In this document: positions 49,676 to 61,974 of the stretch, piece by piece | Numbering within the stretch: position 1 is the first letter of the stretch | How the letters are laid out: each line of letters begins with the position of its first letter | Source of the DNA: Mycobacterium noviomagense | GTDB lineage: Bacteria > Actinomycetota > Actinomycetes > Mycobacteriales > Mycobacteriaceae | Direction: 5' to 3' | DNA length: 64,000 bases | Assembly (NCBI RefSeq): GCF_010731635.1 | Contig: NZ_AP022583.1 | Span: forward strand, 3,472,001 to 3,536,000 | The notes under the pieces: model-generated | Told to the model about the DNA's origin: nothing | Seen by the model: the letters and a program-made list of their open reading frames with translations, nothing else | The model's database searches: none | Translations under genes and position numbers: made by a program

Positions 49676-49975
49676 TCACCCTGCCGCGACCGCGTTGGCA
49701 GCCTCAGTGGCGGCATACGACGCGGCGGCGGCCGTCATGGTCGTCACGAACTGTTGATGAATTGCCGCGGCCTGGGCGCTGACCGCCTGATACACCTCGC
49801 CCTGCGCAGCGAACTGCGCTGCGGTCAGCGCCGACACCTCGTCGGCGGCGGCGGGAATCAGCCCAGTGGTCGGGGCTGCCGCTGCCGTGTTTGCGGCTGC
49901 CATCGCCGAGCCGATACCGTCCAAGTCGCCGGCCGCAGCGGTCAGCATTTCCGGTTGTATGGTCAGGAATGACAT
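49676..49975 (-). CDS. PE family protein (second cluster)
   Basis: A 99-residue PE-only protein: MSFLTIQPEML, AADEVSALTAAQF, YAATE as YxxxE export signal. ATG 49975 with the leader GAGGAGGGAAAGCAC, nearly that of the PE gene at 3604-3897. Divergent from the response regulator. PPE partner follows. Confidence 0.95.
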   Translation of the reverse strand: MSFLTIQPEMLTAAAGDLDGIGSAMAAANTAAAAPTTGLIPAAADEVSALTAAQFAAQGEVYQAVSAQAAAIHQQFVTTMTAAAASYAATEAANAVAAG

Positions 49976-50136
49976 GTGCTTTCCCTCCTCTTCAGATGCG
50001 GCGAAGACCCCACGCCGGGATTGTGGTGGTCGGTTAGACGCAGAGGGTCCGAGGCAAAGCTGAAGCGCAGCTGAAAACAGGGCTGAACGGCGCGTTTTGC
50101 TCAGGCTCCTTTCAGGAAAGCGGTCACAATAGCGGT

Positions 50137-50841
50137 GTGCAGAAAGCCCCACGGCATCACTCGGACACAAGCCCGCCCAGGGTGCTGGTGGTGGAGGACT
50201 ACGGCGCCATCCGCGAGATGGTCGTCGAGGCGCTTGCCGACGCCGGATATGTCAGCGGTGGACGGACGGACGGTCGTGGGCTGGAGGACGTGCTGGCCGC
50301 GTTTCGTCCCGATTTGGTGGTGCTTGACGTGATGCTGCCCGGCCGAGACGGTTTCGCCCTCATCGACGTGGTCCGCGGCTACGGTGACACCGGCATCGTG
50401 TTGCTCACCGCCAAAGACGCGCTTCATGACCGCGTACGTGGGCTAGACGCCGGCGCTGATGACTACGTGGTCAAACCGTTCGACGTGGCCGAGTTGGTCT
50501 CGCGAGTGGGCGCAGTGCTGCGGCGGCGAGGACGAGTGCCGTCGGCCATGCAGGTCGGTGACCTTGTGTTGGATGTGGAAGCCGGCGTGGTCAGTCGTTG
50601 CGGTGCAGTACTGGATCTCACCGGCACCGAGTTCAAGCTGCTCACTTACCTCGTCGAACAGCGGGGCCGGACCGTGAGCAAGGATCAAATCCTGGCGGCA
50701 GTATGGGGATACGACGCATACGACGCCAACCTCGTCGAGGTCTATATCAGCGCGCTGCGTCGCAAGCTGGAGGCACACGGGTCTCGGATGCTGCACACGG
50801 TCCGGGGAATCGGCTACCAGTTGTCGGCATGTCATCCATGA
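50137..50841 (+). CDS. OmpR/PhoB-type response regulator
   Basis: A 234-residue regulator: receiver domain with phospho-acceptor Asp64 in VVLDVMLPG, Thr in LLTAKD and Lys in VVKPFDV, then a winged helix (TGTEFKLLTYLVEQRG, AVWGYDAYDANLVEVYISALRRKL). GTG 50137. Followed by its kinase with a 4-bp overlap. Divergent from the PE-PPE-Esx cluster, which makes that cluster a plausible target; inference only. Confidence 0.93.
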   Translation: MQKAPRHHSDTSPPRVLVVEDYGAIREMVVEALADAGYVSGGRTDGRGLEDVLAAFRPDLVVLDVMLPGRDGFALIDVVRGYGDTGIVLLTAKDALHDRVRGLDAGADDYVVKPFDVAELVSRVGAVLRRRGRVPSAMQVGDLVLDVEAGVVSRCGAVLDLTGTEFKLLTYLVEQRGRTVSKDQILAAVWGYDAYDANLVEVYISALRRKLEAHGSRMLHTVRGIGYQLSACHP

Positions 50842-52250
50842 CCGCCACGACCACACCGACTCCGTCGCTGCGCCGACGTGTGACGGTGGCGACGGTCGGT
50901 GTGATCGCGGTCTTGCTGGTCGTGCTCGGCGTGACTATCGACGAGGTGGTCGGCGTGCAGCTCAACCGTGACCTCGAGGCCCGGCTGGACGATGGCATCG
51001 TCCGCGCCGCAAATCTCGTCAAGGCCAAGGTCGGGCCGGCCGAGATCGTCACCCAGCTGCAAGGACGCCAAATCCGGGTGCAGGTGATCGACCGAAACGG
51101 CACCAGCTACGGTGACCGCACGCTCGTACCCGACGCGCCACCGCCGGTGCCGCCGAAGGGACCACCGCCACCGGCGTCCCGCCACGAGCGGACCACCAAG
51201 ACGGTGACGCGCGTTCTGCGTGATGGTTCGAAACTCACCATGGTGGCGAACACGACCGGGATCCATGCCCGCCAGGCCAAGCTGCGGCGCGACTTACTCG
51301 TCGGCGGCGCAGTCACATTGGTAGTGGTCGCCGTGCTGGTCAGGTTCGCGGTTGGACGCGCGCTGGCCCCCCTCCAGCGGATTACCTCAACAGCCCAGCG
51401 GATCACCTACGGTGACCGGGGGCGCCGACTCCGGCCGGACCGGCCGAAAACCGAGCTCGGCCACGCAGCTGCCGCTTTCGACAACATGCTCGACGCGCTT
51501 GAGGACGCCGAGACCAACGCCCGGCAGGCCGCCGAGACCGCTCAGCGAGCCGAAGCGAAGACTCGGCAGTTCCTCTCTGACGCGGCGCATGAGTTACGGA
51601 GCCCGGTGGCCGGCATCCAGGCGGTGGCACAACAACTCACTGCCAGCACCGAAGCAACCAGCGACGCCGACGACGCTACGAGCGCTCGGCGACGCCGATA
51701 CACCGCACTGCTGGCCCGTGAAACTCGTCGCGCCACCAGGTTAGTCTCCGACCTGCTCGACATCGCCAGCATCGATGCGGGGGTTTTGCTGCCCAACGAG
51801 CAGGTTGACCTCGTTGACATTGTCGCCGCCGAGGTGGACCGAGCCGCGATGCTGGCCCCGAGCCTGAGCGTGCGGCTGGTCGGCGACGACGACCAGCTGC
51901 CCATCCGTGCGGATCCCAGCCGAATCGCGCAGATCCTGTCCAACCTGTTGGACAACGCTCGTCGATATACCCCGCCTGGCGGCGACATCACGGTGTGCCT
52001 CGAAACCCGCGATCAAAACGCTGTGGTGACGGTCATCGACTCTGGCCCGGGCATTCCGCAGGCTGACCGCGAGCGGGTCTTCGACCGATTGGTTCGCCTT
52101 GACGACTCGCGGGACCGCGACTCCGGCGGGGCCGGCCTCGGCCTGCCGATCGCCCGAGCACTGGCGCAAGCGCACCACGGCACGTTGGAATGCCTTCCGC
52201 AGCCCTGCGGGGCGGCCTTCCGGTTAACCCTGCCTATGGTGCCGGCATGA
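50838..52250 (+). CDS. sensor histidine kinase
   Basis: A 470-residue kinase: one membrane helix near residues 20-40, a short proline-rich periplasmic sensor (PPPVPPKGPPPP), second helix, HAMP (GRALAPLQRITSTAQ), H-box SDAAHELRSPVAG with His251, N-box LSNLLDNARRY, G1 DSGPGIP and G2 GGAGLGLPIA. I take the ATGA at 50838; ATG 50829 is possible. Signal unknown. Confidence 0.92.
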   Translation: MTATTTPTPSLRRRVTVATVGVIAVLLVVLGVTIDEVVGVQLNRDLEARLDDGIVRAANLVKAKVGPAEIVTQLQGRQIRVQVIDRNGTSYGDRTLVPDAPPPVPPKGPPPPASRHERTTKTVTRVLRDGSKLTMVANTTGIHARQAKLRRDLLVGGAVTLVVVAVLVRFAVGRALAPLQRITSTAQRITYGDRGRRLRPDRPKTELGHAAAAFDNMLDALEDAETNARQAAETAQRAEAKTRQFLSDAAHELRSPVAGIQAVAQQLTASTEATSDADDATSARRRRYTALLARETRRATRLVSDLLDIASIDAGVLLPNEQVDLVDIVAAEVDRAAMLAPSLSVRLVGDDDQLPIRADPSRIAQILSNLLDNARRYTPPGGDITVCLETRDQNAVVTVIDSGPGIPQADRERVFDRLVRLDDSRDRDSGGAGLGLPIARALAQAHHGTLECLPQPCGAAFRLTLPMVPA

Positions 52251-52254
52251 CAAT

Positions 52255-54315
52255 TCACGGAATGTAGAAGCCCCGTATCCGGTGGTAGCGGTGACGGCCC
52301 AATAGGGCGTTCGCCGCTTGAAAGCCCGACATCACAGCGGCCTCGATGCAGCCGGCGTTCATCCCGCAATCGGTCCAATCGCCCGCCAAAACTAAGTTGT
52401 CGTAACCGCTTTCGTCTGGGCGCAGGCGGTACCGATCACTTCCCGGCACCGACTGGACGTAGCGATCCGACGGGTCGATGTTCACGCTCACATGCTGTGT
52501 TGCCAACGCATCGGCGCCACGCCGCCCGTCGACGCCGGCCAGCAGGTGCCAAGCGAAACCACGCTCGGTGCTTGCACGGGGGAAGTAGAGCCGTAGGTGG
52601 TTGTCGAGATATCTGACGGCGTCGGCGCTCACCTGACTTTCGCAGCGGCGGACGTACTCGAGGTTGTCTTCGGTTGTGTTCGGCGGCGTCCGCAACGCGC
52701 CGCAGAAATAGGCGACAGCACCCGGCCGGTCGTCGTCGGGCCAGTCCTCTGCCCACAACGTCTGCGGCATCGACGCCCAGGTATCGAACGGGGCCACATA
52801 GCCGCTTGTGGTCACTCCCGGATGGCGCCACCCTAACGTGGCCTCGTCTGGGCGCAGCCAAATCTGAAATGCCTGAGTGGCGACGGTGCGGACCTTCGTT
52901 GTCATCTCCCGCCACTCGGGTCGATCCGCGATGAGTTCACCGGCCACGACATCCATCATGCCCAGCGACACCGCGAGCACAACATGGTCGAAGTCGGTGC
53001 CCCTGCGCAGCACCCGTGTTTCGGCGTCGTCGCGCTTGTCGAAATGCGATTCCAGCCAAGAGGTTTCGGCGTCTCGATTCAGTTGACCAGCCACCGGCGC
53101 ATTCGGGAAGACCGGAAGGCCGCGCACCATGACGAGCGGTTCGTAATGGTCGACCCCATCGGCGAGGCGCAGCTGTCGTCCCATTGTGATCGCGTCGATG
53201 GCCTGATTCGCGGCATCGAGGTGCAAGGCATCGACGCGATGGAAAAACTCGAACGTGACACCCCGACGTCGCAGCACCTGATACAAGGGGGCGATCACGA
53301 CGTCGCCCATTCCGGCCGTCATCTTCCAAAACAGCGCGCCCTTGTATTGGAACAGCAAGTTGCCCGTCCACAGCACGGCCAGCCCCGCAGCGAACGCGCG
53401 CCGGCTCCGGTCACCGTCGCGGTAGCCGAACACCATGTCGTAAAGCCCACGCACCAACGGGAATTCGAGCACGTCGGGGTGAGCGCCATGACGAAGGATC
53501 CAGTCACCGAAATCCTCGTCGTTGATCGCTCGAAAGCCGCGCGGGTCGGTGACCAAGTTGTCGGCGATCAGCCCGCGGACCGTGGCCGTCAACAGCGACA
53601 GCAGCAGCCACGCCCGCTTGTGGTCGGGGCGATGGTCGTAGTCGAGAGCGACCCGAATCGCGTTGAGAATCCGGTCTACGAGGCCGCTTTCAGCGCGTCT
53701 TGGCGGTGGATCGGCCAGCGCCGCCAGTACAGCCGTCGCGCCGCGGCGCACCACCTCGACCGACCGGATATGCGCCGGCGGATCGGGTGACGTGGAGAGC
53801 ACAAGACCGACTGCGGCTGGCTCACCCATCGAGTCGGTGAAATCGAGTACCAGCTGAAGTGCCCGGCGAAGAAACCCGACAACCGTGAGTTCCCGGCCGG
53901 TGCCCTCAGGTTCGCCCGGCAGTTCGCGGTTGCGGGCGAACCGGCCGAGCCAGACCGACCAGTCGTCCTGTGCTCGGTCGGCCAGGCCGAGATTGTCGGA
54001 CGCGACAATGGCCTGGTCCCAGGTGCGGATCGGTGCCTGCGGATCGGTTGCGGCCCTGTCGAGTTCGGCGTAGCACTGCCGAAGCAGCCAGAACGCGTTC
54101 TCGTAGGAGCCCAGCCACACATGCAGGCCGTGTTCTTCGATCCGCCCGTGTTCGCCCCGACTCGACGCTGCCTTGCCGCCCAGTCGCCAGCCCCGCTGAT
54201 AGACGGTGATCGAATCGAACCGGTCCCGCCAGCCCGGCTCGCTGAGCCGCCAGGCGGCGCTCAATCCGGCCATACCTGCGCCGAGGATGGCCACCCGACC
54301 CCCGGGCCGGCTCAC
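52255..54315 (-). CDS. FAD-dependent oxidoreductase resembling carotenoid desaturases
   Basis: A 686-residue flavoprotein. GTG 54315 overlaps the cyclase stop by 4 bp. Residues 8-20 have the dinucleotide motif VAILGAGMAGLSA; EEHGLHVWLGSYENAF resembles the HVFxGCYxNxF block of phytoene and zeta-carotene desaturases. The C-terminal NLVLAGDWTDCGMNAGCIEAA is the family's FAD-binding end. It is longer than bacterial CrtI (about 500). With a prenyl synthase nearby, it probably oxidises an isoprenoid. The substrate is not known. Confidence 0.85.
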   Translation of the reverse strand: MSRPGGRVAILGAGMAGLSAAWRLSEPGWRDRFDSITVYQRGWRLGGKAASSRGEHGRIEEHGLHVWLGSYENAFWLLRQCYAELDRAATDPQAPIRTWDQAIVASDNLGLADRAQDDWSVWLGRFARNRELPGEPEGTGRELTVVGFLRRALQLVLDFTDSMGEPAAVGLVLSTSPDPPAHIRSVEVVRRGATAVLAALADPPPRRAESGLVDRILNAIRVALDYDHRPDHKRAWLLLSLLTATVRGLIADNLVTDPRGFRAINDEDFGDWILRHGAHPDVLEFPLVRGLYDMVFGYRDGDRSRRAFAAGLAVLWTGNLLFQYKGALFWKMTAGMGDVVIAPLYQVLRRRGVTFEFFHRVDALHLDAANQAIDAITMGRQLRLADGVDHYEPLVMVRGLPVFPNAPVAGQLNRDAETSWLESHFDKRDDAETRVLRRGTDFDHVVLAVSLGMMDVVAGELIADRPEWREMTTKVRTVATQAFQIWLRPDEATLGWRHPGVTTSGYVAPFDTWASMPQTLWAEDWPDDDRPGAVAYFCGALRTPPNTTEDNLEYVRRCESQVSADAVRYLDNHLRLYFPRASTERGFAWHLLAGVDGRRGADALATQHVSVNIDPSDRYVQSVPGSDRYRLRPDESGYDNLVLAGDWTDCGMNAGCIEAAVMSGFQAANALLGRHRYHRIRGFYIP

Positions 54316-57300
54316 CCGAGCAGCGCCCGTGCGCGTGTCAGCTCGGGCCAGGACTGCTCGGGCGGGAAGCGGCCGACCGCGTCGGCCAAAGCGGCGCGCG
54401 CAGATTCCCCGACAAGCTCGAAGTCGTCTGCGGCCGCCCGCAATTCGAAGATCACCGCACCCTGCACACGCGCCAGTTCGACGGCCTCGCGAAGGCCTGA
54501 ATGGCATACCTGCGGGTCGTCGGATGTGTGGGCTTGCACCCGCAGCAGTTCTGAGTCGTAGAAATGCATTTCGGTCTCGTCGGCCAGCTCCAACGCAATC
54601 CGAACTCGGTCACGGGCGGCGTCCTGCCGGCCCGCGGCGCTGAGCAGCCGTGCCAAGACCGCGTCGTAGCACATCAGAAAAACCTTCAGGTCGTAGGCCC
54701 GCCAGGTCTGCACGACCGCGGTCATGGTTTCGATAAGCGCCTGCAGCATCGCGGGGTCGGGCTCGTCGCTCGCCAGCGCAGCGACCGACCGTACGGTGGC
54801 GTCCTGCGTCGCGGCCACCATCATCCATTCGTCGAAGCCGTGCTGCTTGCCCAATTCGGCGAGTTCTGCGACAAGCTCAGCGGCACGGTCCAGTTGGCCC
54901 GCCTCGATGCGCAGCCAGGTCTCCAGCGACTTTCCATAGGCCAGGCTGAACATGCCGTGCGGGAAGCTCAATATTTCGCAGCGGCGACGGGTCTGTCCGA
55001 ATGCGGCTTCGGCTCCGGCCAAATCACCTTCCATGAACCGCGACACCGCAAGGTAGGTGTAGATCGTCGCGAACGGCTCGTTGGGCAAGAACCACGCATC
55101 CTCGACTCGGGGCTCTCCCATCTCGCCGGCCATCGTCGCAGACGCTTCGTTAAGAGCTCGGGCATCCGCGAAATCACCGCGAAACCACGCCAGGCCGCCG
55201 AACAACAGCTTGTTCACCGCACGGGCCCACGGCGGCATGTCGGCCAGCCTGGACCGTAGCGACTCAGCCAGCTTTGTCGCTCGCCGCAGCTCGCCGCGCG
55301 CGGTGTAGTAGCTCCACAGCGCACTCAACGTCGCGTATAGCTGAGGACTGACTCTCGTGCCGATCAACCGCAAGCAGTGCTCGAAATCAGCGGCGGCCTC
55401 GGCGCTGGCATGTCCCAGTGCCACCGATGCGAGAAACCCGCGCTGCAGTCGTAACGCGATTTCATGCTCGTCGCGTTCAGGGCCCGGTGCCGACCGCTCG
55501 ATGTTCTCCACCGCTCGAGCAAGGTAGCTACGGGCCTCGCCGAGAGCGCCACGCTGCCGGGCCACAGCGGATGCATGTTCGTAAGCTGACGCTGCGGCGT
55601 CATACCGCTTGGCCTCTTCGTAATGGTGGGCCACCAAACGCCATTCGGGATTGCCTGTGGTCGACGCCGCCGCCAGCACGTCGCCGACCCGGCCGTGCAG
55701 CCGGCCACGCAGGCTGGGCGGGACCAACTCGGTGGTTACCTCCCGCAGAAGTTCATGACGGAAGCGCCACACGTCATTGCGCACCGGTTGAAGCACGCCG
55801 CTAACGGTGAGTTCGCCAATCGCCTGGTCCAGGTCGTCCTGGGCCAGATCGACGATCGATAGCAGCAAGCCGCGATCGACGACACCACCGACGATCGCAG
55901 CCGCCTGCGCGACAAGGACGGCGTTCCTGTTCGAGGGCAGCCGTGCCAACAGCGCCTCATACAGGGTGTCGGGAACCTGGGTCACCTCTGAATCCACTTG
56001 CTGTTCTAGGATTTTGGCCATGACCTCTTCGATGTAGAGTGGTATCCCGTCGCAGCGGTGCCGCACCTCGTCGCGTGCATGCGACGTCATCGCGGGATCG
56101 AGAGCAAGGATCAGCTCATCGGCTTGCTCGTCGGTGAGCGGTCGCAGATCGAAGATGCGCACATTGTCCGGCCACGCAACATGCTCGCGCCCGGTGACGA
56201 CGACCAGTAGGCGACCGGTGTCCGCGCCGATTAGTTGGTGGACTACTTCTATGGTGTCGGGATCGAACCAGTGCAGATCTTCGATCACCATAAGGGCGGC
56301 CCCGTTGCCCATGCACGCCAGTAGGTAGTTGTAGACGGCGGTGGCGATTTGGCTGTGCAGCTTGCTGCCTTCGACCAGGGCTGGTCGATAACCTGCCTCG
56401 GGCCGTATGGCGAGCACCGGCGCCAACATCGGGACCATCGCCGTCGGATCCAGCCCAACGTGTGTGATTTCTGCTTCGAGTTTCGCGAGCCGCTGGGCCG
56501 GATCGGATGTGGCGTCGATACCGCATCGTCGTTCGAGCAGTTTCCGCACCGGGCGCAGACCCGTGTCGGTGTGAAACGGCGAACCGAACATCTCCAGCAC
56601 GACAGCGTGCGACGCCACAGCCATCTCGATGGCCGCTGCGGCCAAGCGACTCTTGCCGATTCCGCCCTCACCGACGAAAACCACGCCCGGATTTCTCAAC
56701 GTGCCGACCACAGCTTGGGACCAGGCATCACGCAGGTAGTCGACCTCCCGTTGGCGACCGACCAGCGGGCCAAGCGCATGCCTCGTCGGGTCGAGTTCGG
56801 CAACCGCACGATAGTGGCCAACCAAGCCGTCAACTCCCTTGACTGCCTGCGGTTCTCGCGCTTCAAGCTGAAAGCTGTCCCGGACAAGTCGTGCGACCGC
56901 ATCGGACACCGCAACAGTGCCGGGCTGGGCCAGGCTGCATATCCTTGCCGCGAGATTGGCGCCGAGCCCGTAGACGTCGTCCTGCTCGGTGTCCAGATAG
57001 ACCAGACCGCGGTGGATGCCGACCCGCACATCGATATCGAAGCCGAACCGCCGGCGAACCCGTTCACTCAGCGCAGCCACGTCGTTGGTGATGTCGAGGC
57101 CGGCCCGTACCGCTCGTCCGACATCGTCTTCATGCGGTGTGGGATGGCCGAACACCGCCAGCAGCCCGTCGCCCTTCGTGGAACCGATATGGCCGTCGTA
57201 GCGGTTGACGTTGCGCAGCACCTCGTCGCGGTAACGCCCGACGACCGTGCGGTAGGTCTCCGGTTCGATCCGGGTCGACAGGGCGGTTGAGTCCACCAGA

Positions 57301-57503
57301 TCGGCGAACATGATGGTCAGCCGCCGGATCGTTCCGCCGCCGGCAGGAGTGGCCAGCAGTTCCTCGGCGTCGAGGTTGTTGTCGTCGACTTCGAGTACCC
57401 GCCCGGCGAGCGCGTTGGCGGTGGCGCGGTCGCCGCGGTTGATCGCTTGTACTGCGCGGTCAAGCAATTCGTCGATGGTCGGGGCGGGCGTGTGACCGTT
57501 CAC
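54312..57503 (-). CDS. class III adenylyl cyclase fused to AAA-type NTPase and TPR region
   Basis: A 1063-residue multidomain protein. A short helical N-terminus is followed by a cyclase domain (about 60-235): metal-binding Asp in MFADLVDST and KGDGLLAVFG, adenine-binding Lys in STKGDG and Asp in DDVYG, and N-x3-R in GANLAARI. All catalytic residues appear present. NTPase: Walker A GEGGIGKSRLA, Walker B MVIEDLHWFD. The rest is TPR-like helices. No LuxR helix-turn-helix. GTG 57503. Probably makes cAMP under control of NTP binding. Odd neighbour of isoprenoid genes. Confidence 0.88.
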   Translation of the reverse strand: MNGHTPAPTIDELLDRAVQAINRGDRATANALAGRVLEVDDNNLDAEELLATPAGGGTIRRLTIMFADLVDSTALSTRIEPETYRTVVGRYRDEVLRNVNRYDGHIGSTKGDGLLAVFGHPTPHEDDVGRAVRAGLDITNDVAALSERVRRRFGFDIDVRVGIHRGLVYLDTEQDDVYGLGANLAARICSLAQPGTVAVSDAVARLVRDSFQLEAREPQAVKGVDGLVGHYRAVAELDPTRHALGPLVGRQREVDYLRDAWSQAVVGTLRNPGVVFVGEGGIGKSRLAAAAIEMAVASHAVVLEMFGSPFHTDTGLRPVRKLLERRCGIDATSDPAQRLAKLEAEITHVGLDPTAMVPMLAPVLAIRPEAGYRPALVEGSKLHSQIATAVYNYLLACMGNGAALMVIEDLHWFDPDTIEVVHQLIGADTGRLLVVVTGREHVAWPDNVRIFDLRPLTDEQADELILALDPAMTSHARDEVRHRCDGIPLYIEEVMAKILEQQVDSEVTQVPDTLYEALLARLPSNRNAVLVAQAAAIVGGVVDRGLLLSIVDLAQDDLDQAIGELTVSGVLQPVRNDVWRFRHELLREVTTELVPPSLRGRLHGRVGDVLAAASTTGNPEWRLVAHHYEEAKRYDAAASAYEHASAVARQRGALGEARSYLARAVENIERSAPGPERDEHEIALRLQRGFLASVALGHASAEAAADFEHCLRLIGTRVSPQLYATLSALWSYYTARGELRRATKLAESLRSRLADMPPWARAVNKLLFGGLAWFRGDFADARALNEASATMAGEMGEPRVEDAWFLPNEPFATIYTYLAVSRFMEGDLAGAEAAFGQTRRRCEILSFPHGMFSLAYGKSLETWLRIEAGQLDRAAELVAELAELGKQHGFDEWMMVAATQDATVRSVAALASDEPDPAMLQALIETMTAVVQTWRAYDLKVFLMCYDAVLARLLSAAGRQDAARDRVRIALELADETEMHFYDSELLRVQAHTSDDPQVCHSGLREAVELARVQGAVIFELRAAADDFELVGESARAALADAVGRFPPEQSWPELTRARALLG

Positions 57504-58018
57504 AGTTCAACGTCGGGGATCGGCAGGATCTGCTGCCCCGGCGGGGTGCCCGCCGGGGTGATCGCGGTGAGCCGGACTTCGCCGGTGTAGGCCCTGCCGC
57601 TGAGGTCCGGGTTCATGACAGCAATTTGGAACTGCGTGGCCCCCGCGTCCAATACCGGGGGGATGAACTTGATCTGGTTGTTCGGGATCACCGTCGATGG
57701 ATCACCCACCTGCGTGAATGACGTGGTGACCTCGATATTGCGCCGGTATTTCGGATCGGCTGCCACCGGGATCGGTTCCGACGGTGCCGGTGCCGCATCC
57801 CATTTCACGCTGAAGCCCGGTCCCGATACGGCGGCTTGAACCCACGCCGCCCAGCCCTGCACCGACAGAGCCCACAGGCGGTGCATCGCCTTGATGCGAT
57901 CGTCGAGATTGTATGCTCCGGCGTCGATCTCCTTGGCCGCCGCCTTTGCGGTGGCCGCAATCTGATCCAGCACTTCCTGCGCGACGGTGAGCGGCTTTTG
58001 GGACGGCTGTTCGGTCAT
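57500..58018 (-). CDS. unknown protein with helical N-half and beta-rich C-half (172 aa)
   Basis: A 172-residue protein of unknown family. Residues about 10-65 form amphipathic helices rich in Ala with Trp/Leu (DRIKAMHRLWALSVQGWAAWV); residues about 90-172 alternate like a beta sandwich (IEVTTSFTQVG, FQIAVMNPDLSG, VRLTAITPAG). Overlaps its neighbours by 4 bp on both sides. The product of 59453 has the same two-part layout. The helical half is phasin-like, which could mean binding to a lipid surface; inference. Confidence 0.7.
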   Translation of the reverse strand: MTEQPSQKPLTVAQEVLDQIAATAKAAAKEIDAGAYNLDDRIKAMHRLWALSVQGWAAWVQAAVSGPGFSVKWDAAPAPSEPIPVAADPKYRRNIEVTTSFTQVGDPSTVIPNNQIKFIPPVLDAGATQFQIAVMNPDLSGRAYTGEVRLTAITPAGTPPGQQILPIPDVEL

Positions 58019-59370
58019 GCGTCACCGCCGGGCGTGCCGTCGTCTGGCGGTTGGCTGAGTGCCTGGATGAGTCGCCATGGCGCACTTGCTATCTCTGCGC
58101 CCACGTCTTGGGTGTAGGTGACCAAATCGTCAACGGTAAGTTGGTTTTTCCACCACTTGGTGGACAGTTGCAGGTTCTTGTCGGCGAGGTCCTTGAGGCA
58201 GTCGATCCACGTTTGGGTTGTCGTTGACGCCACGGAGCCGCCTGTCGTCGGCTTCTGCGGTCCCGTAGACGGTTCGGTACCGGTGGACGCCGTCGTTGTA
58301 GCCGATGCCGGCGACTGCTGCCAGGGCACCGTGTCCGCCGGTGGGTTCGCGGCGTTACCGAAGATCATCTCCGCGGCCTGCGACGCATATCCGGCTGGGC
58401 AGACGAACATCGCTTGTGCGGCCGGCCACAGACCGTTGATATGGACGATCTTGCGCGTGCGCACCCACACCCCGGGGTTGCCGGTCGCCCACATCTTGAT
58501 GAAGCCCCGGTCGACCGTGATCCAGCCGTCACCGGGTTCCGGCAGCCCGGACTTATCGAGGTCATACTGCAAGACCGCCTGGTCGCCAGCAGGGTCGCTC
58601 TTGTAGTACTTCAGCGGGGTGACCATGCGGGGCCAGCCGTGCTGACAGTCCAGGCTGACCGTTTCCAGCACCCGGCTCCAGCCGTTGGGAAGCAGGTCAG
58701 GAACCTGCTGGTCCATCTCACAGAATGCGTGCGGATAGTTTCGGTGCCAGTTCAGCGGATCGACCACATCTTTGAGGTTTTGCAGGTATATGTCCGACCG
58801 CCCGAAGCTGGTGTCGATCACCACGCACTCGTACCCGTCGACCCACTGCGTGGAGGGGATGCAGCGGGGCACGGCAGCCACGTCAGCCGACAGCAAGCCC
58901 TGCACGACGGCTCTGCGGACCACACGGTCGAAGTCCCTGGCGGCCTCGAATTCGGCATAGAGAAGCCGCAGCAAGGCGTCCCCGGTCTCGAGGTTCCCGC
59001 CGGTTTCCTCTTCGTAATCCGGGCCGGCCAGAGCAAGTGCGCGCCCCAACATAGACTCGGGTCGAAGAGTCATCTCCTCGAATCGCGGTGTGTGGCAAAG
59101 GGCTCCGATGACGTAAACGAGCCGAGACAGCTCCGGAACAGTCAGCCGATCCTCACCCTGCACGATGTCGGCCAGCGCCCGTTCGGGGTCCGGAATCGCG
59201 TCTTCGGTGCGGCGGCCGAACCTCTCCATGAGGTTGCCGAACCAGCCGGGGCTGCGGGCGGTGATAGGCAAATACCGTCCGGCGGCGTGGGCGACGGCAC
59301 GGCTGTCAAATTCGGATGTCGCGGGATCCAGCGCACCGTAAAGCGCCATCAGGGAAGGCAGAGCCGCCAT
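58015..59370 (-). CDS. unknown protein, possible START/SRPBCC-like lipid-binding domain (451 aa)
   Basis: A 451-residue protein. ATG 59370 has AGGAGGAG just upstream. The first 170 residues are helical and acidic. Residues about 180-345 alternate in strands (ECVVIDTSFGRSDIYLQNL, PLKYYKSDPAGDQAVLQYDL, VWVRTRKIVHINGLW) with a long closing helix (WPAAQAMFVCPAGYASQAAEM), as expected for an SRPBCC lipid-binding fold. A Thr/Ser linker and a Trp-rich C-terminal helix pair follow. First gene of the minus-strand operon. No family recognised with certainty. Confidence 0.7.
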   Translation of the reverse strand: MAALPSLMALYGALDPATSEFDSRAVAHAAGRYLPITARSPGWFGNLMERFGRRTEDAIPDPERALADIVQGEDRLTVPELSRLVYVIGALCHTPRFEEMTLRPESMLGRALALAGPDYEEETGGNLETGDALLRLLYAEFEAARDFDRVVRRAVVQGLLSADVAAVPRCIPSTQWVDGYECVVIDTSFGRSDIYLQNLKDVVDPLNWHRNYPHAFCEMDQQVPDLLPNGWSRVLETVSLDCQHGWPRMVTPLKYYKSDPAGDQAVLQYDLDKSGLPEPGDGWITVDRGFIKMWATGNPGVWVRTRKIVHINGLWPAAQAMFVCPAGYASQAAEMIFGNAANPPADTVPWQQSPASATTTASTGTEPSTGPQKPTTGGSVASTTTQTWIDCLKDLADKNLQLSTKWWKNQLTVDDLVTYTQDVGAEIASAPWRLIQALSQPPDDGTPGGDA

Positions 59371-59452
59371 TGCTCCTCCTGGGGCCGTCTGCGCAGCTAG
59401 CATACCCAGATGCGGGATTAGCCGGTGGCAATTCGTCGAAGGGCAGCACGGC

Positions 59453-60142
59453 GTGGATCGCGAGATGGACGGCAATCGCAACAGCAGCGACCAGGGAACA
59501 ATCAGCGATCTGCCGTGGGCCTCGGTTTTCGATCCTGCCGCAAACGCCCGCGCGCTGAGCGCTATTCAGGCCGAAGGCTTTCGGGCCGCCAGCCGGATCG
59601 TCGACCGATTCGTGCGAGCAGTGGGGACGCCAGAGCGACAGGCAGCCAACGGCGCGGTGAACGCCACCGACGACGGTCAGGCGGAGATGCCCGAATGGGA
59701 ACGGCTGACTCGGGCGTGGTGGTCGCTCTATGGCCAATTTCTGCTTGGCTCAATGCCTTTCGCCGCCCGACAAGGCAGCGGAACGGTGACGCTCGATCTC
59801 AACAAGCCCGACGCGACGGGCGCCCTGAACCTCGAGGCTCCGGTGGGCGGTGCTGCCAGTGCCGAGGTGTGGCTGCACAACCGGGGACCCGAAGACCGGC
59901 CGGATGTTCGGCTGCGCTGCAGTGATCTGCTCAGCCACGACGGTGACGTGATTGGCACCGACGCGGTGCTTATCGACACCCCCGTCGTGCCAATGCCGCG
60001 ACGATCCAGCCGTGGGGTGACGATCAGAATCGATGTTGCACCGCAGACGCGGCCCGGCGTCTATCGCGGCACCGTGCTGGCAAGCAGTCACCCCGATCTG
60101 TGGCTTTCCGTGCAACTCACCGTCCGCCTGCCAAGCACATGA
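59453..60142 (+). CDS. unknown protein with helical N-half and beta-rich C-half (229 aa)
   Basis: A 229-residue protein of unknown family. N-terminal helices (ALSAIQAEGFRAASRIVDRF; PEWERLTRAWWSLYGQF) resemble the amphipathic part of the 57500-58018 product. The C-terminal half alternates as an Ig-like beta sandwich (GTVTLDLNKPDATG, AEVWLHNRGPE, GVTIRIDVAP, LWLSVQLTVRLP). Divergent from the 451-aa gene with an 82-bp gap that must hold both promoters. Its stop overlaps the prenyl synthase start (ATGA). Confidence 0.7.
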   Translation: MDREMDGNRNSSDQGTISDLPWASVFDPAANARALSAIQAEGFRAASRIVDRFVRAVGTPERQAANGAVNATDDGQAEMPEWERLTRAWWSLYGQFLLGSMPFAARQGSGTVTLDLNKPDATGALNLEAPVGGAASAEVWLHNRGPEDRPDVRLRCSDLLSHDGDVIGTDAVLIDTPVVPMPRRSSRGVTIRIDVAPQTRPGVYRGTVLASSHPDLWLSVQLTVRLPST

Positions 60143-61191
60143 CCAGTACCGCTGAGCGCGCCGCGCTGGTATCCGTGGTCGATGAACGCCTGCGCGAGGT
60201 CGCCAAGCTGGTGCGCCGATCGATGCTCGACGCACTGCCCGACGGCGAACCCAACCAGTGGCTATATGCACCGATGCGCGCGTATCCGTCGCGGCCGGGC
60301 AAGGCGTTGCGACCCGCACTGTGCCTGTCGGCCGGCCGCGCATTCGGAGCGGACGCGGACGAGCTGCTGGGCGCGGCTGTGGCGATCGAGATGCTGCACA
60401 ACGCATTCCTGGTTCACGACGACATCGCCGACGGCAGCGAAATGCGCCGCGGCAGGCCAACTTTGGCGGCAACGCACGGAATCGCTGCAGCACTCAACGC
60501 CGGTGATGCGTTGGCGGTGGTGGCCGGCCAAGTGTTGCGGCGGGCGACCCGTCGGTTCGATCGCGACCTGGCCGAGCTGGTGTGGGCTGAATTCGACACG
60601 ATGGCGATGCGCACCCTCGAGGGCCAGGCAACCGAAGTGGGCTGGCTCCTCGACAACATCGAGAATCTGGGGCCCGAGGACTATCTGAACCTGATCATGC
60701 ACAAGACGTGCTGGTACACCACCATCCATCCACTGCGGGTCGGAGCAATCGTGGGCTCGCGCGGCACCGCCGAACTGGGCCCGTTGGTGCGATTCGGCTT
60801 CCATTTCGGCGCCGCCTTTCAGATCCGTGACGACCTGTTGAACCTGGTGGGTGACGAACGGCTTTACGGCAAGGAGATTCTCGGTGACCTCTACGAGGGC
60901 AAGCGGACGCTGCCGCTGATCCACCTGCTGTCCGCCGCGCAGGGCCGCGACCGGGATATGGTCCGCGACTATCTGCGGCGCACCCGAGCGGAGCGGTCGA
61001 GCGAGTTGGTGTGCGAAGTGCGCGCGCTGATGGACCGCTACGGCAGCATCGCGTTCGCCAGCGAATTCGCCGAGGGCATTCTGCTGGTCGCCGAGGAATA
61101 TTTCGAGCAGGCCTTCGCCCACGCCCGGCCCGGCCCGGACCTGGAGTTCCTGCGGGCACTGGTGCCCTACGTGTGGGCGCGCTGGCGGTGA
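60139..61191 (+). CDS. polyprenyl (isoprenyl) diphosphate synthase
   Basis: A 350-residue trans-prenyltransferase. First aspartate-rich motif DDIADGSEMRRGRP (FARM), GDALAVVAGQ, then the second region FQIRDDLLNLVGDERLYGKEILGDLYEGKRT. The second motif ends in Asn (DDLLN) as in many geranylgeranyl synthases rather than Asp. It condenses IPP with allylic diphosphates; chain length cannot be read reliably, C20 or longer is my guess. ATGA overlap with the 229-aa gene. Confidence 0.92.
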   Translation: MTSTAERAALVSVVDERLREVAKLVRRSMLDALPDGEPNQWLYAPMRAYPSRPGKALRPALCLSAGRAFGADADELLGAAVAIEMLHNAFLVHDDIADGSEMRRGRPTLAATHGIAAALNAGDALAVVAGQVLRRATRRFDRDLAELVWAEFDTMAMRTLEGQATEVGWLLDNIENLGPEDYLNLIMHKTCWYTTIHPLRVGAIVGSRGTAELGPLVRFGFHFGAAFQIRDDLLNLVGDERLYGKEILGDLYEGKRTLPLIHLLSAAQGRDRDMVRDYLRRTRAERSSELVCEVRALMDRYGSIAFASEFAEGILLVAEEYFEQAFAHARPGPDLEFLRALVPYVWARWR

Positions 61192-61208
61192 GGGCGGGCC
61201 GCTTCCGT

Positions 61209-61214
61209 TATCGT
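61209..61214 (+). promoter_or_regulatory. -10 hexamer TATCGT of thyX (leaderless)
   Basis: TATCGT, 7 nt, GTG 61222. The alternative GTG at 61213 overlaps the hexamer itself, so 61222 is preferred. Confidence 0.55.
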
Positions 61215-61221
61215 GAGCGCC

Positions 61222-61974
61222 GTGGCCGAGACCGCTCCGCTGCGGGTGCAGTTGATCGCCAAGACCGAGTTCGTGGCGCCGCCCGACGTGCCGTGGGGTA
61301 CCGACGCCGACGGCGGGCCGGCGCTTACCGAGTTCGCCGGCCGGGCCTGCTACCAGAGCTGGTCTAAGCCGAACCCGAGAACTGCGACCAACGCCTCCTA
61401 CATCAAGCACATCATCGACGTCGGGCATTTCTCGGTGCTCGAGCACGCCAGCGTGTCGTTCTACATCACCGGCGTCTCGCGGTCCTGTACGCACGAGTTG
61501 ATCCGGCACCGGCATTTCTCGTACTCACAGCTCTCGCAGCGCTACGTGCCGGAACGCGACTCGCAGATCGTTGTGCCGCCGGGAATGGGAGACGACGCGG
61601 AACTGCAGGAGATCCTGAGCGCAGCGGCCGACGCCAGCCGTGCCACCTACACCGAACTGCTGGCCAGGCTCGAAGCGAAATTCGTCGATCAGCCCAACGC
61701 CGTTTTGCGGCGCAAGCAGGCTCGTCAGGCGGCCCGGGCGGTGCTGCCCAATGCGACGGAAACCCGGATTGTCGTCACTGGCAACTACCGCGCGTGGCGG
61801 CATTTCATCGCCATGCGGGCCAGCGAGCACGCCGATGTGGAAATCCGGCGGCTGGCCATCGCCTGCCTGCGCCAGCTGGTTGACGTCGCGCCGGCGGTGT
61901 TCGCCGACTTCGAGATCACCACCCTGGCCGACGGCACCGAGGTCGCGACGAGTCCGTTAGCGACGGAGGCTTGA
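61222..61974 (+). CDS. thyX: flavin-dependent thymidylate synthase ThyX
   Basis: A 250-residue FAD-dependent thymidylate synthase with signature [14 protein letters not shown] (RHRxxSxxxxSxR), GRACYQSW and [14 protein letters not shown]. It produces dTMP with tetrahydrofolate as product. The start gives exactly the M. tuberculosis length. The window thus carries both ThyA and ThyX, as in that species. Confidence 0.97.

Follow-up and report, generated by a model that had tools for sequence, protein, structure and literature searches.

A divergent six-gene locus of mycobacteria that may couple isoprenoid oxidation to a cyclase-ATPase

Do the six divergent genes at positions 52,255 to 61,191 of a 64,000-nucleotide stretch of the Mycobacterium noviomagense genome form one unit, and what would such a unit make? 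The stretch (contig NZ_AP022583.1, positions 3,472,001 to 3,536,000; here called the window) belongs to a genome of 4.78 Mb in one contig. The genes encode a flavoenzyme (FAD), a cyclase-ATPase (CYC), a prenyl synthase (PPS) and the small proteins p451, p172 and p229. A sequence-only reading of the locus had described the six products as one coordinated unit and had named co-occurrence across genomes as a way to check it. Co-occurrence, layout and gene overlaps strongly support that description, and the six genes are inherited together.

One draw of 148 genomes of the genus was used alike for FAD, p451 and p229, while PPS and CYC were left out of the genus-wide counts because both belong to common families. 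FAD was present in 33 of the 148 genomes, with no match at E 1e-30 in the other 115, and p451 was found in an identical set of 33. p229 was detected in 32, all of them FAD carriers; the sole carrier without it (G085) is a 73%-complete draft in which the locus is cut at a contig edge. p172, searched with a single-sequence query, was found in 22/148, again entirely within the 33. When 20 loci were fetched with their flanks, PPS was found in 18 (in one of them in two frames) and a close CYC in 19, and the two loci without PPS (L039 and L045) sit at contig ends.

The arrangement of the genes was equally stable. A FAD profile gave 548 relatives in genome contigs, of which the best 80 were kept, and 57 of these were mycobacterial. 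An identical layout, PPS-p229 on one strand and p451-p172-CYC-FAD on the other, was observed in 45 of the 57 loci. Among the 12 exceptions, five end at or before PPS, three have FAD and CYC swapped in order, L092 is without CYC, L103 is without a p172 match, and L090 and L100 deviate solely through the mechanical open reading frame (ORF) starts used by the sorting script. The 4-bp overlaps were kept at CYC/FAD in 52/53 scorable loci, at p229/PPS in 49/51, at p172/CYC in 37/50 and at p451/p172 in 35/53. The thyX-dapA genes that adjoin the block in the window did so in only 9/57 loci (six were unscorable, the locus ending at or before PPS); with the stable layout, this indicates that the block keeps its form at differing genomic sites. 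Median pairwise identity over 18 loci was 76% for PPS, 66% for FAD, 53% for CYC, 45% for p229 and 31% for p451, and 27% for p172 (15 loci); the enzymes are conserved, and the binding and small proteins are fast-evolving. Pairwise distances of FAD correlated with those of p172 (0.91), CYC (0.87), p451 (0.84) and p229 (0.77), values that are not corrected for species relatedness.

In the window itself, the gene number, strands and sizes given in the sequence-only reading, its 4-bp ATGA or GTGA overlaps at each junction within an operon, and its 82 bp between the divergent starts were all confirmed from the ORFs and the sequence (Table 1). The overlaps read ATGA at p451/p172 (58018-58015), GTGA at p172/CYC (57503-57500), GTGA at CYC/FAD (54315-54312) and ATGA at p229/PPS (60139-60142). 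For FAD and PPS, starts downstream of the mechanical ones were taken: GTG 54315 for FAD, supported by orthologues, where the mechanical ORF opens farther up at 54507, and ATG 60139 for PPS, where it opens at GTG 60100. The divergent gap becomes 94 bp if p229 starts at ATG 59465. The divergent region is a putative shared control region. A scan for sigma-70-type promoters and terminators showed no excess, and over 52000-61300 no sigma-70-type match was obtained, which says little for mycobacterial promoters.

Table 1. Coordinates of the six genes and the divergent region in the window
Feature	Position	Strand	Size and basis
FAD, flavoenzyme of the amine-oxidase/HpnE/phytoene-desaturase-like superfamily	52255..54315	-	686 aa; Pfam/NCBIfam, motifs
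CYC, class III cyclase with AAA_16 (STAND-like by architecture) and long C-terminal region	54312..57503	-	1063 aa
p172, fast-evolving	57500..58018	-	172 aa; without family
p451, helical N-terminal domain, START/SRPBCC, linker, C-terminal helical hairpin	58015..59370	-	451 aa; predicted structure
Divergent intergenic region	59371..59452	.	82 bp; sequence
p229, two predicted helices and C-terminal Ig/PapD/MSP-like beta-sandwich	59453..60142	+	229 aa; predicted structure
PPS, trans-prenyl diphosphate synthase of a dedicated lineage	60139..61191	+	350 aa; PF00348

As to what the unit would make, we tentatively propose a dedicated system in which PPS and FAD make an oxidised isoprenoid, p451 handles it and CYC regulates, a reading to which we give somewhat less than an even chance. 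PPS would build a prenyl diphosphate and FAD would oxidise this chain or a derivative of it. The START-domain protein p451 would then bind the hydrophobic product or remodel it, and in other phyla a barrel resembling acetoacetate decarboxylase (ADC) would act on it or carry it. p229, p172 and the p451 hairpin may be assembly or lipid-surface parts, and CYC may sense a ligand and then switch the pathway or emit a cyclic nucleotide. We infer the order of steps, the identity of the substrate and the use of the PPS product by FAD.

FAD was also found outside the mycobacteria. In evenly drawn phylum samples, each including its own centre genome and searched at E up to 1e-60, it was present in 6/396 genomes of Actinomycetota (three of the same genus), in 6/397 from the phylum of the Methylococcaceae genome G550, which carries L123, and in 34/236 from that of the Myxococcales genome G554, which carries L129. 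In the first two of these samples it is thus rare. A set of 58 non-mycobacterial loci was assembled from 23 of the best 80 relatives, 31 loci of the three phylum samples and four plasmid records; of the matching genomes in the G554-phylum sample, only a part was fetched with flanks. Within 6.5 kb of FAD, CYC was found in 41 of these loci, an ADC-like barrel in 26 and PPS in 22; in the 37 loci whose flanks reach 6 kb or more in both directions, these numbers were 28, 18 and 13. Excluding ORFs shared with FAD, the stretches up to 6.5 kb away (639 kb) held 42 CYC, 22 PPS and 21 ADC matches, versus 2, 0 and 0 farther out (236 kb). The gap between FAD and CYC was at most 500 bp in 31/58 loci. The FAD-CYC pair is thus wider than the six-gene set and recurs in several phyla.

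Relatives were also found in 11 plasmid records, with related sets on plasmids of Azospirillum, Catenovulum, Qingshengfaniella and Rufibacter. In all four plasmid stretches that were read, the match coincides with a gene annotated as a flavin- or NAD(P)-binding oxidoreductase; an ADC family protein is annotated in L132 and L133, a cyclase-domain protein in L131 and L134, and a kinase-AAA-histidine-kinase protein in L133. On this Azospirillum plasmid (L133, 11887-24641), two FAD-type genes, an ADC-family gene, a gene for an outer-membrane transport protein and one for a kinase-AAA-GAF-PAS-histidine-kinase protein are adjacent.

The partner that recurs most widely with FAD was described in the sequence-only reading as a cyclase-AAA-TPR protein. 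Its cyclase and ATPase parts were recovered (Guanylate_cyc 66.1 bits, AAA_16 49.5 bits), and the C-terminal TPR was found only below threshold (TPR_12, E 0.79 in the window protein). Walker A and B, the metal Asp pair and the Asn/Arg pair are conserved, the latter two being pairs with established roles in class III cyclases, so that domain score and motifs together identify CYC as a class III nucleotide cyclase. In ATP-specific adenylyl cyclases a Lys specifies the substrate; at the position aligned with this Lys of Ma1120, CYC has Ser, as do 47 of the 71 rows having a residue there. CYC was therefore not classed as an ATP-specific adenylyl cyclase, and ATP appears doubtful as its substrate because of this replacement. 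CYC also matches the TOMM kinase/cyclase fusion model (TIGR03903) over most of its length, with 284.7 bits against a cut-off of 705.75 (relatives elsewhere scored 531.1, 278.6 and 161.4 bits). Unlike the TOMM system, the window CYC has no kinase match and none of the six genes is a TOMM gene, and membership was rejected.

The same protein suggests another explanation, that of a sensor and its effector: CYC would raise an alarm, FAD would oxidise a lipid or quinone for stress or phage defence, and PPS would be a later add-on supplying substrate. The FAD-CYC pair extends beyond the PPS-linked branch, the AAA_16-cyclase architecture suits a sensor, and the patchy occurrence (33/148), shifting genomic sites and plasmid-borne relatives are consistent with such a system, as is the likeness of the cyclase domain to Pycsar cyclases (PycC; PADLOC, E 1.1e-15). 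However, the Pycsar match spans the cyclase domain only, and unlike Pycsar cyclases the block cyclase is fused to AAA_16; among the six proteins nothing else matched, the dedicated Pycsar effector included, so that Pycsar membership was rejected. PADLOC, run on eight proteins, matched nothing beyond cyclase profiles and, weakly, a single desaturase-like one (0.0028), and the layout is stable, as in a biosynthetic operon. We consider this explanation unlikely.

FAD itself was assigned by Pfam (Amino_oxidase 59.2 bits, NAD_binding_8 44.6 bits) and NCBIfam to amine-oxidase/desaturase-type flavoenzymes, which bears out its earlier description as a carotenoid-desaturase-like flavoprotein. The dinucleotide motif and a C-terminal GDWTD..AGCIEAA motif are near-invariant across 81 rows. 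A search of solved structures with the FAD profile gave no relative at 1e-5. The best curated matches were HpnE (88.5 bits), zeta-carotene desaturase (ZDS, 41.2 bits) and phytoene desaturase (PDS, 37.3 bits). From these scores FAD might be a desaturase or dehydroxylase of a carotenoid or hopanoid branch whose squalene or phytoene synthases are encoded elsewhere. This is unlikely: the scores lie far under the cut-offs (283 for HpnE, TIGR03467; 622 for ZDS; 569 for PDS), and FAD was assigned to none of these families. Hydroxysqualene dehydroxylase HpnE and the PDS/ZDS desaturases share the amine-oxidase-like flavoenzyme superfamily with FAD, but their models span 430-474 aa against ~690 aa, and the partner genes also differ. 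HpnE works together with HpnC/HpnD, and neither these nor a phytoene synthase was found among the six block proteins (the rest of the genome was not searched); the partners with which the FAD family recurs are ADC-like proteins and CYC.

PPS, described in the sequence-only reading as a polyprenyl diphosphate synthase, matched PF00348 with 186.9 bits and is one of four PF00348 places in the genome. The aspartates of its first Asp-rich motif, DDIAD, are invariant in 70/70 rows; the second is the variant DDLLN, with Asn in 66/68 rows. Family match and both motifs identify it as a trans-prenyl diphosphate synthase. The closest solved relative was the Thermus geranylgeranyl diphosphate synthase 1wmw (157.9 bits), and since enzymes of this type are its nearest solved relatives, a product chain of ~C20 may be guessed by analogy. 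In Mycolicibacterium litorale F4, PPS is split over two frames, being broken or mis-sequenced (L029, 6384-7444; L059, 3078-4165). The best NCBIfam match of PPS was to the polyprenyl transferases that are family 2B encapsulin cargo (NF041169), at 184.8 bits against a cut-off of 450. Such cargo has 50-100 disordered residues at its N-terminus, according to the published account (PMC8346489). No such stretch was seen in PPS, whose alignments with solved synthases begin at residue 16 or 12, and it was not counted as family 2B cargo. No encapsulin shell-type match was obtained with the five remaining block proteins; the wider surroundings were not searched.

In the PPS tree, 25 synthases of the system were separated from 23 other synthases of ten carrier genomes by a branch of length 1.19 with support 100/99; the tree has no characterised prenyl synthases as outgroups and omits five further PF00348 places of carrier genomes, which have no locus. 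In the FAD tree, 25 PPS-linked rows (22 of the 58 loci and three mycobacterial) fell on one side of a branch and 24 rows whose flanks, each 6 kb or longer, contain no synthase on the other, with a Shimodaira-Hasegawa-like approximate likelihood ratio test (SH-aLRT) value of 100, and 0/500 label shuffles clustered as tightly. This tree was made with a quick method and no bootstrap; ten short-flank rows were left unlabelled, of which L105 and L109 fall within the PPS clade, and the removal of rows with fewer than 400 matched residues took out L102 and L110. On these trees, the PPS-linked branch has one origin, and FAD and PPS are both dedicated lineages. As far as tested, the two enzymes do not belong to separate known pathways, a possibility that the sequence-only reading had itself raised.

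The branch splits into two groups with different accessory genes. One, of 12 loci from Delta- and other Proteobacteria, Myxococcales and Thermoanaerobaculia, has a ~245-aa protein (C9) in 12/12 and an ADC-like gene in 8/12. The other, of 10 non-mycobacterial actinobacterial loci, has p229 in 10/10 and p451 in 8/10. A comparison of p229 with C9 was suggestive only (probability 23%, P 9e-4). L119, from an Actinomycetes bacterium, is basal on the actinobacterial side (SH-aLRT 93) and holds PPS, CYC, an ADC-like gene and a weak p229 (20-22 bits). Most simply read, an ADC-like barrel gave way to p451 in the actinobacterial lineage.

The barrel itself is found near FAD in other phyla where the START protein stands in the window locus. 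FAD and an ADC-like domain share one ORF in 8/58 loci, three of them with low scores (L190, L210 and L211; 28-35 bits); in L131, a 968-aa protein from a Qingshengfaniella plasmid, Pfam finds both parts. The ADC family PF06314 was matched over its cut-off (29.8 bits) in L119 (38.1 bits), L132 (35.2) and L131 (31.3), with seven more matches below it. Alignments of the L119 protein to two solved ADCs are weak (E 0.067 and 0.11) but well placed, over the GFPK motif. Of 12 ADC-like proteins, 10 keep the motif Lys, the Schiff-base lysine of ADC: seven have it in the form G-x-P-K and three in the form G-x-A-K, and no such motif was seen in L128 or L132. A second copy of the motif region, without the Lys kept in the first, was seen in L118 (5365-9983, both proteins) and L123 (13080-16472). 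Because the ADC-like barrels mostly keep the Lys of the active-site motif, the oxidised intermediate probably carries a carbonyl. In contrast to these barrels, none of the six window proteins matched PF06314, and p451 was rejected as ADC-like, with an hhalign probability of 0.2% against the ADC-like set and START matches for its model.

p451 has no Pfam or NCBIfam family match. Its predicted structure contains a START/SRPBCC domain of helix-grip fold (~172-337), a disordered linker and a C-terminal helical hairpin (378-439), and this supports the SRPBCC-like character suspected from the sequence. Relatives of the model include the lipid-transfer and polyketide aromatase/cyclase proteins TTHA0849, MSMEG_0129, ZhuI and STARD4/5, at 4-13% sequence identity in the rows listed; p451 differs from them in its helical domain and C-terminal hairpin. 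A scan of genome contigs with a single p451 query confirmed no relative, and of eight non-mycobacterial genomes searched only that of Blastococcus contained p451, the L119 genome (G549) being negative. More than one p451-type ORF lies inside the block in L062, L094 and L097, the first and last of which also have more than one p172. p229 is predicted to have helices at 28-57 and 79-99 (low confidence) and an immunoglobulin (Ig)/PapD/MSP-like beta-sandwich at 112-225, and its only family match is a sub-threshold GH123 N-terminal domain. p172, with only a chance-level Pfam/NCBIfam match, looks helical towards the N-terminus and beta towards the C-terminus when judged by eye, and weakly resembles the Ig part of p229 in profile comparison (P 8.6e-4, probability 23%). 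For the p451 N-terminal helical domain, the hairpin and the p229 helices, fold searches listed no match, which is no evidence of a new fold.

These proteins might instead coat a hydrophobic isoprenoid granule with the enzymes sitting on it. p451 and p229 both pair predicted helices with a beta domain, the hairpin of p451 is a separate ~80-aa ORF after the barrel gene in six mycobacterial loci (L054, L071, L089, L106, L111 and L121), and no strongly hydrophobic stretch was found in p172, p451 or p229. No phasin or other granule family was matched, however, and the p229 helices are modelled at low confidence; a lipid particle of this kind is improbable.

Several observations weigh against the proposed synthesis of an oxidised isoprenoid by PPS and FAD. 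PPS was not within 6.5 kb of FAD in 36/58 non-mycobacterial loci (some at contig ends), so this synthase is no general requirement of the FAD family; CYC was not within that distance in 17/58, and L191 and L205 had none of CYC, ADC and PPS. Among mycobacteria, L092 lacks CYC, and the CYC neighbour in L048 is only a distant homologue (27% identity). FAD and PPS distances were weakly correlated (r 0.34). No terpene cyclase or squalene/phytoene synthase was found in the block, which leaves the fate of the prenyl diphosphate unexplained, and the ligands of START domains include non-isoprenoid ones. The exchange of barrels is imperfect, since L125, L127, L192 and L193 (4/12 of the non-actinobacterial PPS branch, some at a contig edge) have no ADC-like gene and L114, on the actinobacterial side, has neither ADC nor p451. 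As for a shared lipid-surface role, the helical parts of p172, p451 and p229 gave no match among themselves (profile links between hairpins), and ten related proteins gave no match to phasin-type Pfam families at E up to 5, although HMMER filters may hide weak ones. Of the earlier proposal that an oxidised isoprenoid is made, carried and signalled by this locus, the unit, the START fold and the dedicated lineages stood, while action of FAD on the PPS product, carriage by p451 and cyclase activity keep their conditional status. That the locus is an isoprenoid-hormone circuit, with an oxidised signal, a START receptor of the plant abscisic-acid-receptor fold, a non-standard cyclic nucleotide from CYC and a FAD-CYC-ADC module across phyla, is very improbable.

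Beside the block, a pair of genes resembling a response regulator and a histidine kinase (labelled by eye) lies on the plus strand at 50137-52250, pointing at the block; the stop of the kinase gene falls 4 bp before the end of the FAD gene. No such neighbour with >45% identity was found beside the block in any of the 57 mycobacterial loci. A minus-strand ORF at 49676-50170 contains a putative PE-family N-terminus in its inner part.

The sequence-only reading had known of no described system with this set. The literature, as covered (subscription journals lie mostly outside), gave no description of it, and the curated models were missed by wide margins. The set as a system appears undescribed, although its enzymes belong to known families, and its chemistry may prove a variation on known isoprenoid oxidation. 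If the proposed dedicated system is real, a pathway not yet described would occur in several phyla, linking a dedicated PPS and an uncharacterised FAD lineage with a large signalling ATPase. The unit offers two recognisable enzymes and a predicted lipid-binding domain as handles; it would also give a context to the hypothetical proteins p451, p172 and p229 and suggest an activity to seek in the ADC-like barrels.

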